This document shows, piece after piece, positions 2,651-29,968 of a stretch of 30,565 nucleotides of DNA (within the stretch, counting starts at the first letter, position 1; every line of letters starts with the position of its first letter). The stretch lies in the IMG/VR virus record IMGVR_UViG_3300015024_000023, positions 1 to 30,565 of that record; one strand, 5' to 3'. Both the position numbers and the translations under genes were made by a program. Under the pieces are notes generated by a model. That model had not been told where the DNA came from. It did not search any database and worked only from the letters and a program-made list of their open reading frames with translations. This DNA comes from a virus.

Positions 2651-2682
2651 AAAAAACCGAATCATAATAGATTCGGTTTTTT
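2651..2682. terminator. Bidirectional intrinsic terminator 2
   Basis: A perfect 13-bp inverted repeat, AAAAAACCGAATC / GATTCGGTTTTTT, with the loop ATAATA. The A-run on one side and T-run on the other let it act in both directions. It is the second terminator in 70 bases, so read-through in both directions should be strongly blocked here. Confidence 0.85.
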
Positions 2683-2713
2683 GCATAAAAGATATATTTT
2701 TTGCTTACTTTTG
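2680..2713 (+). promoter_or_regulatory. Promoter for the head gene operon
   Basis: TTTG at 2680-2683, a 22-base spacer and TACTTTTG at 2706-2713 match the Bacteroidota TTG / TAnnTTTG layout, at the long end of known spacing. The promoter sits just after two terminators and restarts transcription 53 bases before the TTG start at 2766. Its -33 part overlaps the descending arm of the second terminator. Confidence 0.55.
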
Positions 2714-2765
2714 CATACGTTCAATAGAGCGCTCTTTATAAGACCTTTTCCTTGCCGTTCTCAAA

Positions 2766-4843: not shown

Positions 4844-5637
4844 GCAAAATAAAATACTCTGATAGTGAAATTTCGGATTTACTAGACGGCATTTTTGCTG
4901 GTGATATTACCGAATACTCGCTACCGGACAACTTATATTTTGCTATTGCCGACTATTTAAAAAAAGGCTTATATGAAGGCTTTGGTAAATCTATTGCAGA
5001 GCTCGACGGTGACGACGTGGCTCTGGGTTTACTTTCTGAGCTCCGTAATAATATTTACGCGTTTTCTGGTGCTAAGACTTTTCAGCAGGTCCGCGAAATG
5101 GTTGACCTACTCACCGACGACGCTGGGAAAATACGAACATTTTCAGCGTTTAAAACCGACGCTATCGATATTTACCAGACTTATAATATTGACTGGTTAC
5201 AAACTGAGCGCTCGACGGCACTTGGCCAGGCTAGCAATGCGGCGAAGTGGCAGCAGATCATAAAAGATAAAAAAACATTCCCCTTGCTCCGCTATTCGGC
5301 TATCGAGGATGCAACAACGTCAGATATTTGCGCGCCTCTTGATGGTATTGTATTACCCGTTAATGACCCGTTTTGGGATGAGTTTATGCCGCTTAATCAT
5401 TTTAACTGCCGCTGCCTGGTAACACAGATAGCTGACGGTGAGCTAGAGGCTACCGATCCTGACGAGCTAGACGGTATTGCTGCCGGACCTAGAGAGCTTA
5501 TAAAGCCGCTATTCGCTGAAAACCCAGGCAAAACAGGCGAGGTGTTTAATAAGGAACACCCCTATTTTGATGTGCCTAAAGCGGACAAGAAATATGCTAA
5601 AGAGAATTTTAACCTAGATATACCAGAAAATGATTAA
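4840..5637 (+). CDS. MuF-domain minor head protein (Mu gpF-like)
   Basis: A minor capsid protein acting in head assembly or DNA ejection near the portal. The C-terminal MuF domain shows the family marks: ERSTALGQASNAAKW near residues 125-139, RYSAIEDATTSDICAPLDG near 151-169, and the cysteine-rich end FNCRC near 188-192. The two cysteines of CRC plus the earlier ICAPLDG cysteine are the usual conserved set. At 265 residues it is on the short side, without a C-terminal toxin or peptidase domain of the kind sometimes fused to MuF. It lies directly after the portal, with an 8-base overlap to the next gene. Confidence 0.88.
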   Translation: MSKIKYSDSEISDLLDGIFAGDITEYSLPDNLYFAIADYLKKGLYEGFGKSIAELDGDDVALGLLSELRNNIYAFSGAKTFQQVREMVDLLTDDAGKIRTFSAFKTDAIDIYQTYNIDWLQTERSTALGQASNAAKWQQIIKDKKTFPLLRYSAIEDATTSDICAPLDGIVLPVNDPFWDEFMPLNHFNCRCLVTQIADGELEATDPDELDGIAAGPRELIKPLFAENPGKTGEVFNKEHPYFDVPKADKKYAKENFNLDIPEND

Positions 5638-5899
5638 CCCTAACGCTCCAAAATTTGACCTTACCGGCTACCGCTCTATTGATATGCTGGCCTCTATGGT
5701 TACTCATAGGCGTACATTTTGCAAACCTATAAAGGCCTTTTACTTAAAGCCTTTATTATATGACAAATTTATGTCAGACTTTGAACAGCTGACGGGCCAG
5801 GAATGGCAGGCTGGCCGGGAGGTTACCTTTGACAATATAAATATTTATTGTGGTGATGTAAACCAATTTGATGCCGTAAGAGAGGTATATTATGAGTAA
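5630..5899 (+). CDS. Hypothetical small protein between MuF and gpG-like genes
   Basis: An 89-residue protein of unknown family with mixed alpha/beta composition and two cysteines (C31 near THRRTFCKP and C74 in IYCGDV). It overlaps the MuF gene by 8 bases and the gpG-like gene by 8 bases, so it is clearly part of the head-tail joining operon. Small proteins in this position of other phages include adaptors and head-closure accessories, but nothing in the sequence allows a specific call. Confidence 0.65.
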   Translation: MINPNAPKFDLTGYRSIDMLASMVTHRRTFCKPIKAFYLKPLLYDKFMSDFEQLTGQEWQAGREVTFDNINIYCGDVNQFDAVREVYYE

Positions 5900-6353
5900 A
5901 AATCAATTCGGTATTGATAAAATTATTGTCGCCCTGGGTAATATGAGGGATGAAATACCTATGAAGCTGGCTAACCAGGCGCAAAACTTCTTTATAGATA
6001 ACTTTCGTAGGCAAGGATTTTTAGACGGCAGTACAAAGCCCTGGGCAGAAGTAAAGCGTCGCATACCTGGTACCAATGCCTATAAATACCCGCTAAAAAA
6101 AGACCTGGGTAGGCACGAGAGAGCTATTTTACAGGGCAAAGGCTCTGGTCAGCTACGTAAAGGTGTTAATAACAGCATTAAAAAAGCAACCTTTTCGCTT
6201 GTAAAGCTGGTCGTTGATGTGCCCTACGCTAGTTATTTGAATGAAGGCACCTCAAAAATGCCAGCCCGTAAATTTATGGGCGACTCTATTACACTAAAAG
6301 AAAACCAGGTGAAACTAATAAAACAGTATATTGATAACGCCTTTAAGAAATGA
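5892..6353 (+). CDS. Phage virion morphogenesis protein (Mu gpG-like)
   Basis: A 153-residue protein of the phage virion morphogenesis (gpG/gpS-like tail completion) family, needed to finish the tail end that joins the head. Family marks are FFIDNFRRQGFLDG near residues 37-50, a W-x-x-V-K-R-R segment (PWAEVKRRIPG) near 54-64, and the C-terminal PYASYLNEGTSKMPARKFMG near 117-136. The last of these, with N-E-G-x-x-x-M-P-A-R-K-F-x-G, is the most diagnostic. It is linked by ATGA-type overlaps to genes on both sides. Confidence 0.87.
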   Translation: MSKNQFGIDKIIVALGNMRDEIPMKLANQAQNFFIDNFRRQGFLDGSTKPWAEVKRRIPGTNAYKYPLKKDLGRHERAILQGKGSGQLRKGVNNSIKKATFSLVKLVVDVPYASYLNEGTSKMPARKFMGDSITLKENQVKLIKQYIDNAFKK

Positions 6354-27503: not shown

Positions 27504-27929
27504 TTATACGTGCTGGGGCTGCCTTAACTGTAAAGGTTTATCGACGCCGGCTCCGTAAAAACGGGAGGTTAGCAAACCTATTAATTCAGCCTGTTTTTTT
27601 GCCATAGACTTTAAGACCTCTAGCTCTTCTTTTAATAATGTTATATCAGTAACAATGGAGTTTTTCTCTATAACCTTATGACGAGGTCCTTTACCCGTCA
27701 GGACCCAGTCTGCCGAAATACCGAATTTTTGCAGTAAAACAAGTAAAGTGTCATGCTCTATTGCTGACTTATCATTTTCCTGTCGGGAAATTTTTTCCTG
27801 ATTTGTACCCACTATTTTGCCAAACTCAGTCCCATTATAGCCGTAATGTTCGCGTATTAATTTAAAACGGTGCCCGACAGTCATACGGCCAACGGCGGTA
27901 ACTTCCTTAATTTTTTCCTTGTTTATCAT
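27504..27929 (-). CDS. XRE-family HTH repressor
   Basis: A 141-residue repressor-like protein. The helix-turn-helix domain covers about residues 16-70: VGHRFKLIREHYGYNGTEFG, then KIVGTNQEKISRQEN (recognition helix) and HDTLLVLLQKFGISADWVLTGKG. The last motif is typical of phage CI-like proteins. The C-terminal part (LLKEELEVLKSMAKKQAELI) looks like a coiled-coil oligomerisation helix. There is no LexA/S24 peptidase domain, so self-cleavage after DNA damage is not expected. Its ATG overlaps the upstream gene's stop by 4 bases. It is the likely binder of the TTTGATAT arrays nearby. Confidence 0.85.
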   Translation of the reverse strand: MINKEKIKEVTAVGRMTVGHRFKLIREHYGYNGTEFGKIVGTNQEKISRQENDKSAIEHDTLLVLLQKFGISADWVLTGKGPRHKVIEKNSIVTDITLLKEELEVLKSMAKKQAELIGLLTSRFYGAGVDKPLQLRQPQHV

Positions 27930-28321
27930 ACCTTTTTGTATTTGTCGTTTTCAACTTCGTAATTACTTAGGTCTATATGTTTAAAAAATTCTTCTTCGTT
28001 TCCATACGAAAAGAGCCATGATATATCGACCTTACATTCATTAAAATATTTATTCATAGCTATCCGCTTTGACTGGCCTAAATGCATGCCGCCGTTGCTT
28101 TCGCGTATCTCAGAGGCATTTTTATTTATCCAGCGTGAATATTGAGCGCCGGTAGCTCCATTAAAAAGGGAGGCAAAATACGTTTTATATAGCTCACCTT
28201 CTAAATTATCTGGGTCTGCAAAGTTTTGCAAATTGGCTCTATACCATTCAATATTTAAAAGTAGCTCATTGCCGCCAGAATCTTTGCGAACATTTTTCAT
28301 TGTTTCTACGTAATTAGTCAT
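27926..28321 (-). CDS. Hypothetical protein, first gene of the repressor operon
   Basis: A 131-residue protein. An in-frame ATG at 28396 would add 25 residues, but it would lie upstream of, or at, the predicted transcription start near 28388, so I prefer the ATG at 28321. The protein is helical with many aromatic residues (NIEWYRANLQNFADPDNLEG, FASLFNGATGAQYSRWINKN). It has a possible recognition-like segment, SKRIAMNKYFNE, and an acidic end. It is encoded before the XRE repressor and may be its partner or a second regulator. The family is not recognised. Confidence 0.65.
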   Translation of the reverse strand: MTNYVETMKNVRKDSGGNELLLNIEWYRANLQNFADPDNLEGELYKTYFASLFNGATGAQYSRWINKNASEIRESNGGMHLGQSKRIAMNKYFNECKVDISWLFSYGNEEEFFKHIDLSNYEVENDKYKKV

Positions 28322-28327
28322 AATCTT

Positions 28328-28363
28328 TTTGATATGTTTGATATTTTTATTATCTTTGATACA
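28328..28363. repeat. Operator array 1: four 9-bp units
   Basis: Units TTTGATATG, TTTGATATT, TTTATTATC and TTTGATACA follow each other without gaps; the third is degenerate. An inverted copy, ATATCAAA, stands at 28390-28397. The array covers both elements of the rightward promoter. It corresponds unit for unit to the array at 28663-28698, with about 30 of 36 bases identical. Confidence 0.8.
28329..28358 (+). promoter_or_regulatory. Rightward early promoter (PR) inside array 1
   Basis: TTG (28329-28331), a 19-base spacer and TATCTTTG (28351-28358) match the Bacteroidota promoter very well. The first operator unit overlaps the -33 TTG and the fourth overlaps the -7 box. The start would fall near 28363, leaving a leader of about 65 bases before the ATG at 28429. 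Confidence 0.7.
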
Positions 28364-28393
28364 ATAATCAATCCATAAATAATATAAACATAT

Positions 28394-28424
28394 CAAATGT
28401 ATTAAATATATTAAACACTAACAA
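28394..28424 (-). promoter_or_regulatory. Leftward promoter of the repressor operon
   Basis: Read on the minus strand: TTG (28424-28422), a 20-base spacer and TACATTTG (28401-28394), a full match to the Bacteroidota layout. The inverted TTTGATAT copy (28390-28397) overlaps the -7 box and the start region. Its start near 28388 lies to the right of the PR start near 28363, so the two promoters face each other. Confidence 0.7.
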
Positions 28425-28428
28425 ACCT

Positions 28429-28650
28429 ATGTATAACAATTTAATTACAAAACCTCGTTTACTTCCTAACAGAGCAAAAAAAATCCGCGCTCTAAATGTT
28501 GGTGAGGCCTATATTGAGCCAGCAACATTACTCCGCAATAATTACGCTATCTGTGCAACCACAGTATCGTACATTAAAAAGAAATTACCAGAGAGGGAAT
28601 ATCAAACAGAAAAGCGCCCTGACGGTATCTATGTGCATAGAATAAAATAA
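28429..28650 (+). CDS. Small basic protein in the cro position
   Basis: A 73-residue basic protein with an N-terminal KPRLLPNRAKKIRALNVGEA. The following part, with TLLRNNYAICATTVSYIKKK, looks like a helix-turn-helix or short winged-helix segment, and the end EKRPDGIYVHRIK forms a strand pair. It stands between the two operator arrays, is transcribed away from the repressor gene and is thus in the place of Cro. It may compete with the repressor at the arrays. The family is not recognised; DNA binding is inferred from composition and position. Confidence 0.65.
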   Translation: MYNNLITKPRLLPNRAKKIRALNVGEAYIEPATLLRNNYAICATTVSYIKKKLPEREYQTEKRPDGIYVHRIK

Positions 28651-28662
28651 ATAAAAAATATA

Positions 28663-28698
28663 TTTGATATTATTGATATTATTGATATCTTTGATATA
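28663..28698. repeat. Operator array 2: four 9-bp units
   Basis: TTTGATATT, ATTGATATT, ATTGATATC and TTTGATATA follow each other in perfect 9-bp phase, 12 bases after the stop of the cro-position gene. The array is more regular than array 1 and also contains a promoter. Its last unit runs into the ATG at 28698. Confidence 0.85.
28664..28693 (+). promoter_or_regulatory. Second rightward promoter inside array 2
   Basis: TTG (28664-28666), a 19-base spacer and TATCTTTG (28686-28693): the same sequence elements and spacing as in array 1. Transcription should start at about 28697-28699, that is, at the ATG of the next gene (28698), giving a leaderless mRNA for the following operon. Confidence 0.7.
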
Positions 28699-28826
28699 TG
28701 ATATACTTAACTACTTCAAAAACACAAGCTCCAGGAGCTCGCCGGATCGATTATTTTTATTTAGCCTTAGCAGGTATTGTACTTGCCTCTGGTTTATTAA
28801 TTGGCTTTTTAATATCCATTGTATAA
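28698..28826 (+). CDS. Small membrane protein (42 residues)
   Basis: First gene behind array 2. The 42-residue product has a polar N-terminus (MIYLTTSKTQAPGARR) and one membrane helix (YFYLALAGIVLASGLLIGFL, about 19-38). The start ATG lies at the predicted transcription start; a longer reading in another frame from a TTG at 28664 would run through the operator array and gives unlikely protein. The stop overlaps the next ATG by one base. The function is unknown; such early membrane peptides can act in exclusion or take-over. Confidence 0.65.
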   Translation: MIYLTTSKTQAPGARRIDYFYLALAGIVLASGLLIGFLISIV

Positions 28827-29341: not shown

Positions 29342-29968
29342 ATGTCTGGATTTTCAACAAGCGACCGTAAGATTTATGCTTCCGTTATGGGAGGCAAATT
29401 TCGCCTTAAGGCAACGGAAAAAAGCGACACTGCCATAGTGCAGACGCGTATTAAAAAAACCGGTGAACAGGTCACCGAGGAGGTGCACGACCAGCTAGAA
29501 GGCCGGATAAAGGATATTAGTTTCGACCTGGGAAACTCGCTGGGCCCTATGCTTAATATAGTAGTTGATGCCGGCTTTGATGTTTCATTCTCGCTAAGCC
29601 TTAAAGGAGGTCCGTCAAAAGCGTTTCTAAAAACATTGCCTAACGTAGACCTATCAAAAGAGGTAGTTTTTAAACCTCGGGTAGAGGAGTTTGTCAGGCC
29701 AGACGGTACTAAGGGCACCTCAAATTCCATGTTACTAAAACAGAATGGCGCCTGGTTAAAGCAGTATTTCAAAAAAGACGCTATGAACGGTATGCCTGAC
29801 TATACAAAGGTGCTGGATAAGCTGACAAAAAAGGAAACGCTCGACGACAGCGACCAGGTAGGGTTTTTAGTGGAATATACAGTTAAGCATACCCTGCCAA
29901 AGCTAATAGCTACGGCGCCACAAGCGGCCACAATAATAGCCGAGGAGGAGGAGGAGCTACCCTTCTAA
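29342..29968 (+). CDS. Putative single-stranded DNA-binding protein with acidic tip
   Basis: A 208-residue protein that does not look like standard bacterial SSB in its core, but ends in EEEEELPF. This acidic stretch closing in Pro-Phe is the hallmark of SSB C-terminal tips, which bind recombination and repair partners. The core is beta-rich (KIYASVMGGKFRLKATEK, then GPMLNIVVDAGFDVSFSLSL) with a basic part (SMLLKQNGAWLKQYFKKDAM), consistent with an OB-fold-type phage ssDNA-binding protein. It is in the early operon, as a replication or recombination protein would be. Confidence 0.65.
   Translation: MSGFSTSDRKIYASVMGGKFRLKATEKSDTAIVQTRIKKTGEQVTEEVHDQLEGRIKDISFDLGNSLGPMLNIVVDAGFDVSFSLSLKGGPSKAFLKTLPNVDLSKEVVFKPRVEEFVRPDGTKGTSNSMLLKQNGAWLKQYFKKDAMNGMPDYTKVLDKLTKKETLDDSDQVGFLVEYTVKHTLPKLIATAPQAATIIAEEEEELPF

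Follow-up and report, generated by a model that had tools for sequence, protein, structure and literature searches.

Operators built of short repeated units are read by several small proteins, among them omega and MetJ, whose units are 7 and 8 bp long. These two (the omega heptad arrays of pSM19035, PMC9499535, and the met boxes) resemble the locus described here in that small proteins read contiguous short units, but both are ribbon-helix-helix proteins, and none was recognised in the 30,565-base IMG/VR virus record that we analysed (hereafter the window). BldC of Streptomyces, a MerR-like winged-helix protein of 68 residues, binds contiguous direct repeats head-to-tail with one protomer per 9 bp; its consensus is AATTXXXX(C), and the number of repeats varies between its promoter sites (PMC5859096). 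Cox, Apl and Xis work much like BldC on direct repeats; P2 Cox and 186 Apl are the products of the first genes of the early operon, their direct-repeat sites occupy the space between two face-to-face promoters and extend over these, and both promoters are repressed by Apl (PMC7498355). Finally, RdfS of ICEMlSym R7A, an oligomeric winged-helix protein, binds attP as well as promoters and forms a superhelical filament with about one protomer per 10 bp (PMC11963761); RdfS has no clear consensus repeat, whereas the repeat in the window is explicit.

The window is probably an incomplete contig, the structural genes of which resemble those of Bacteroidota phages; the best matches of its terminase and capsid include phages of Flavobacterium and Bacteroides. 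Its switch region lies at 27.5–28.8 kb. Running leftward on the minus strand are a repressor candidate (27504–27929), assigned an HTH_19/XRE domain by family searches, and p131 (27926–28321), a 131-aa orphan that is the first gene of the leftward operon. Running rightward on the plus strand are p73 (28429–28650), a 73-aa orphan that is the first gene of the rightward operon and the suggested array-binding regulator, and small early genes, including p42 (28698–28826), which encodes a small membrane-like protein.

Two plus-strand arrays, array 1 (28328–28363) and array 2 (28663–28698), flank p73. Winged-helix regulators of the BldC/Cox/Apl/Xis type use tandem direct repeats spaced by about one protomer (9–11 bp), and each array here consists of four contiguous 9-bp units of consensus TTTGATATn: in order, TTTGATATG, TTTGATATT, TTTATTATC and TTTGATACA in array 1, and TTTGATATT, ATTGATATT, ATTGATATC and TTTGATATA in array 2. 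The first-pass annotation had described them as about 30/36 alike, and they are identical at 30 of the 36 bases. Against the consensus TTTGATAT, array 1 matches at 29/32 positions and array 2 at 30/32; outside the switch, no site in the 30.5-kb window reaches at least 22/32, with peak scores of 19–22 in window-wide Markov sequences serving as the null. In a matrix search, as the same annotation had suggested for this phage, a matrix built from one array recovers the other, with a score as good in 0/20,000 dinucleotide shuffles. In an unsupervised lag-9 scan, the three top-ranking places of the window are array 2 (24/27), array 1 (20/27) and a third array discussed below (18/27). Arrays 1 and 2 are confirmed as real, far beyond chance, and within the window they are confined to the switch. 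It is scarcely credible that the 9-bp periodicity is a by-product of coding (three codons, giving Ile-Leu-Lys-type repeats) or of chance. In array 1 the repeats are in phase with a TTG-started extension of p131, in array 2 with another frame that begins at TTG, and several pattern matches in other contigs are coding starts; against this, the TTTGATATn unit recurs on both strands, at three sites that differ in frame and all lie outside ATG-started genes, and the shuffles of arrays 1 and 2 speak against chance.

Each of these arrays contains a promoter-like sequence motif, TTTG-N19-TATCTTTG, which bears out the earlier proposal that both carry a Bacteroidota promoter. In the rightward promoter PR of array 1, the TTTG occupies 28328–28331 and the -7 box 28351–28358; in the promoter P2 of array 2, they occupy 28663–28666 and 28686–28693, respectively, both on the plus strand. 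Judged by sequence, the arrangement is that of the Bacteroidota primary sigma factor, i.e. TAnnTTTG with TTTG or TTG about 19–20 bp upstream. One detail of the proposal has to be corrected: the -7 box is not covered by unit 4 but straddles units 3 and 4. The Bacteroidota -7 consensus is TAnnTTTG, and the mapped -7 box of Flavobacterium extends from -12 to -5; setting the -7 box at these positions (PMC9723704) places the predicted starts at 28363 for PR and 28698 for P2. Note that P2 is predicted to start exactly at the ATG of p42, which points to a leaderless transcript in a Bacteroidota phage. Altogether, the window holds five TTTG-N17–23-TAnnTTTG pairs (1.9 expected window-wide), four of them within the switch. 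The sole pair outside, a TTTG-N22-TAnnTTTG at 2680–2718 (plus strand), lies upstream of a gene at 2766 and has no array.

The promoter cannot be counted as independent of the repeat: when the register is shifted, the unit reads TATnTTTGA, i.e. a TAnnTTTG -7 box with one extra base. The arrays might accordingly be reiterated -7 boxes or AT-rich promoter DNA, the repeats having been made by duplication of TATnTTTGA and having no dedicated binder. Most of the nine unit positions do fall in TAnnTTTG, but we consider this explanation decidedly improbable: departures from the consensus destroy most of the extra boxes, TAnnTTTG being intact at two of three unit junctions in array 1 and at one of three in both array 2 and array 3, with no loss of the 9-bp register. 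Moreover, the promoter-like site at 2680 has no array, and comparable non-coding 9-bp periodicity was found in only two loci, neither of them a recognisable switch array, among 115 loci of other phages (153 kb of non-coding DNA). The paucity of intact boxes in a conserved register argues for a reader of the repeat other than polymerase, as far as the sequence tells.

Array 3 (28380–28415, minus strand), which is absent from the first-pass annotation, has four units reading from 28415 to 28380 (TTTAATATA, TTTAATACA, TTTGATATG and TTTATATTA), inverted with respect to array 1. Its match to the consensus of arrays 1 and 2, at 25/32 positions, is significant (22 of 20,000 shuffles), but its periodicity taken alone is not (1126/5000 shuffles, lags 4–15); it is degenerate and weaker than arrays 1 and 2. 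Arrays 1 and 3 are inverted relative to each other and separated by 16 bp inside a 107-bp divergent intergenic region. Array 3 overlaps a predicted leftward promoter, PL, with TTTG at 28425–28422, a spacer of N20 and the -7 box TACATTTG at 28401–28394 on the minus strand, and a predicted start at 28389. An alternative leftward promoter immediately upstream of PL, PL' (28422–28451, minus strand), combines TTTG at 28451–28448, N18 and TAGGTTTG at 28429–28422, with a start predicted at 28417 by consensus only. The predicted starts of PR and PL face each other and lie 26 bp apart if 28389 is used or 54 bp apart if 28417 is used. With array 1 over PR and the inverted array 3 over PL, the two promoters, whose starts are placed by consensus, are predicted to oppose each other in the manner of P2/186-type switches.

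Like BldC sites, the window arrays are AT-rich, consist of 9-bp direct repeats without gaps and have one mostly conserved G:C pair per unit. On the other strand, the unit reads AAAnATATC, with a C after an AT tract in each 9-bp step, a resemblance to BldC sites rather than a test. The proteins are also of similar size, 68 aa for BldC and 73 aa for p73, but BldC is a host developmental regulator, whereas p73 is a candidate DNA binder that has no HTH_17/MerR similarity. The likeness to Apl and Cox concerns the layout: p73 is likewise the first gene of an early operon, and the window displays the same geography of promoters and sites. There are differences as well. Apl repeats are 10–11 bp apart and also occur at attP, whereas the window units are contiguous with a 9-bp pitch; the window has a further array on a second early promoter; and while in P2/186-type switches the same protein acts as excisionase, with sites at attP, no integrase was recognised among the ORFs listed for this contig, which is probably incomplete, and no att site was seen in it.

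Because the window has the promoter–site geography of Apl and Cox, we favour p73 as a Cox/Apl-like regulator. Our preferred reading, to which we give somewhat less than an even chance, is that the arrays serve as operators for a small protein that loads head-to-tail and represses PR, PL and P2, p73 being the most likely candidate. The three arrays would then be the operators of a temperate-phage lysis–lysogeny switch. The regulator would load head-to-tail, with one protomer per 9-bp unit and four per array, and once bound would occlude the promoter written inside each array. PR would drive the early operon, starting with p73, PL would drive the repressor operon against PR, and P2 would act as a second early promoter just after p73. 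Like P2 Cox and 186 Apl, p73 would shut PL so that no repressor is made; as it accumulates, it would also shut PR and P2 and limit its own operon. This scheme contains four steps that we infer: functional promoters, a single binder for all three arrays, its assembly into a filament, and p73 as that binder. The earlier suggestion that the 9-bp period hints at a wrapping or filament-forming protein is reasonable and has a direct precedent in BldC, with Cox, Apl and Xis working in a similar way; a 9-bp direct-repeat pitch is hence a known binding mode and is not novel in itself. The idea that one regulator could silence both rightward promoters is plausible and is widened by array 3 to the leftward promoter, the binder being a candidate.

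By eye, p73 has a helix-turn-helix-plus-wing layout, and its structure model, of low confidence (pLDDT 56), contains a helix at residues 31–52 and a hairpin at residues 58–72. It matched no family in Pfam, PHROGs or NCBIfam, HTH_17 included. We do not file p73 under any family because all family searches failed and the model is poor; neither these searches nor the model revealed a recognisable MerR/HTH_17-type winged helix. Similarly, p131 had no match in family searches, and its low-confidence model is all-helical. Fold searches with the p73 and p131 models, which are too poor to interpret, gave no significant match. That p131 or a host AT-binding protein reads the arrays is very doubtful: p131 would be transcribed from the predicted PL, is predicted to be all-helical with low confidence, and the repeat unit is very AT-rich, but p131 lacks a family match, its model is of low confidence and nothing ties it to direct repeats.

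In favour of p73, we count that no dyad in the region rises above the null and that 434-like repressors normally use palindromes; weighing against it are the missing family match, the low-confidence model, the degeneracy of array 3 and the failure to find an orthologous switch. A bolder version, which we regard as unlikely, is that one reiterated 9-bp word serves as -7 element and as operator at all key promoters (PR, PL and P2) and is read by an orphan 73-aa protein, the founder of a new filament-forming direct-repeat family with no sequence relation to BldC and Cox.

The main rival to p73 as array binder is the 434-like repressor candidate, a possibility that we judge rather unlikely. Its domain is similar to the 434 repressor and PezA, and its C-terminal part has no recognised protease domain. 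The XRE protein would load cooperatively on the repeats or bind the palindrome TATC-TTT-GATA, and the early promoters PR and P2 would be held shut in the lysogen. The early promoter is the usual site of repressor operators, and TATCTTTGATA occupies an identical position in both plus-strand arrays, over the -7 boxes of PR and P2, the form TATCnnnGATA being found only once more in the window. Lambdoid operators are palindromes that CI repressor and Cro share, and 434-type proteins are dimers on palindromes; the window dyads are not above the null, despite TATCTTTGATA at both promoters. In addition, the palindrome is missing from array 3, and binding by the repressor would leave four contiguous same-strand units unexplained. 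A contrasting arrangement is seen in the Mu-like Bacteroides phage BX-TP1 (L132:1400-1600), where two TCTAAG-N3-CTTAGA-type palindromes surround the switch promoter.

Relatives of the switch were sought in several collections. No close relatives of p73, p131 or the repressor candidate were found in IMG/VR; INPHARED gave nothing for p73 and p131, generic XRE matches only for the repressor, and no significant relative of the switch DNA; and p73 had no match in PLSDB. Scans of genome collections provided no usable Bacteroidota relative. Switch homologues were absent from 80 loci with the metallophosphoesterase gene, and loci with a homologue of the gene at 29342–29968 had neither switch homologues nor arrays. 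Among 68 terminase relatives (at most 68% identity), there was no homologous p73, one generic repressor match and no comparable non-coding switch array. These structural relatives without arrays provide no test of conservation, because the whole switch module is missing there. The array search in relatives that the first-pass annotation had proposed is hence neutral as regards structural relatives, and its indirect support comes from an unrelated phage. In IMG/VR, the array pattern occurs in 41 contigs, mostly as AT-rich repeats or coding starts, and only one of these occurrences is switch-like. Two apparent arrays were rejected, that of G043/L250 as a signal-peptide coding start and that of L056 as coding sequence. 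Elsewhere, a short 9-bp AT-rich repeat immediately precedes an ATG (L049:14238-14282), and a GC-rich (53%) viral contig has five perfect ATTGATATA units (L023:11684-11727), possibly an operator or a coding repeat.

The switch-like case is IMGVR_UViG_3300035162_001131 (L028), a 29-kb contig from a Bacteroidota-type temperate phage unrelated to the window. It has exactly two TTTRATATn arrays of five units each (7 overlapping matches versus 0 for the reversed control), which score 31/32, whereas shuffles peak at 24. The first directly precedes the integrase gene and ends in TACCTTTG; the second lies in the repressor/early intergenic region and extends over the repressor start codon. The gene at 5349–6158 is a putative repressor by its position and our own reading of its sequence, and it has no family match. 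An excisionase-type winged-helix (HTH_17) protein of L028 matches the PHROG 'excisionase and transcriptional regulator' (phrog_66), with weak similarity to Gp37, 4j2n; no similarity was found between it and p73. Like the window, L028 carries arrays of nearly the same unit, TTTRATATn, in its regulatory region. The sites differ, one L028 array lying by the integrase gene and the other over the start codon of the putative repressor, and the regulators of L028 and the window are dissimilar in sequence. Since L028 was picked by its array pattern, it shows recurrence and not prevalence, and its cognate protein is a candidate. We take this array pair as indirect support for the array reading.

To our knowledge, lysogeny control in Bacteroidota phages is largely uncharacterised. 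What is new here is that proposed operators coincide with the promoter sequences at three predicted phage promoters, together with an orphan candidate binder. If the preferred reading is true, the switch would be compact, with promoter and operator in the same letters and one small protein covering three promoters, and the head-to-tail direct-repeat mode of BldC and P2 Cox would extend into Bacteroidota phages. The 9-bp TTTRATATn arrays over TAnnTTTG boxes would then provide a simple signature for finding such switches.

Two further features lie to the right of the switch. The gene at 29342–29968 (plus strand) encodes a protein of 208 aa; distant homologues occur in other phages, and all end in an acidic (L/A)PF tip like the tails of single-stranded DNA-binding proteins; judging from this tip, it may belong to a phage SSB family. 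At the contig end, the segment 30230–30510 (plus strand) contains coding tandem repeats of 45/90 bp, which give repeats of about 15 residues, e.g. AENPEKVKANNAKWA.
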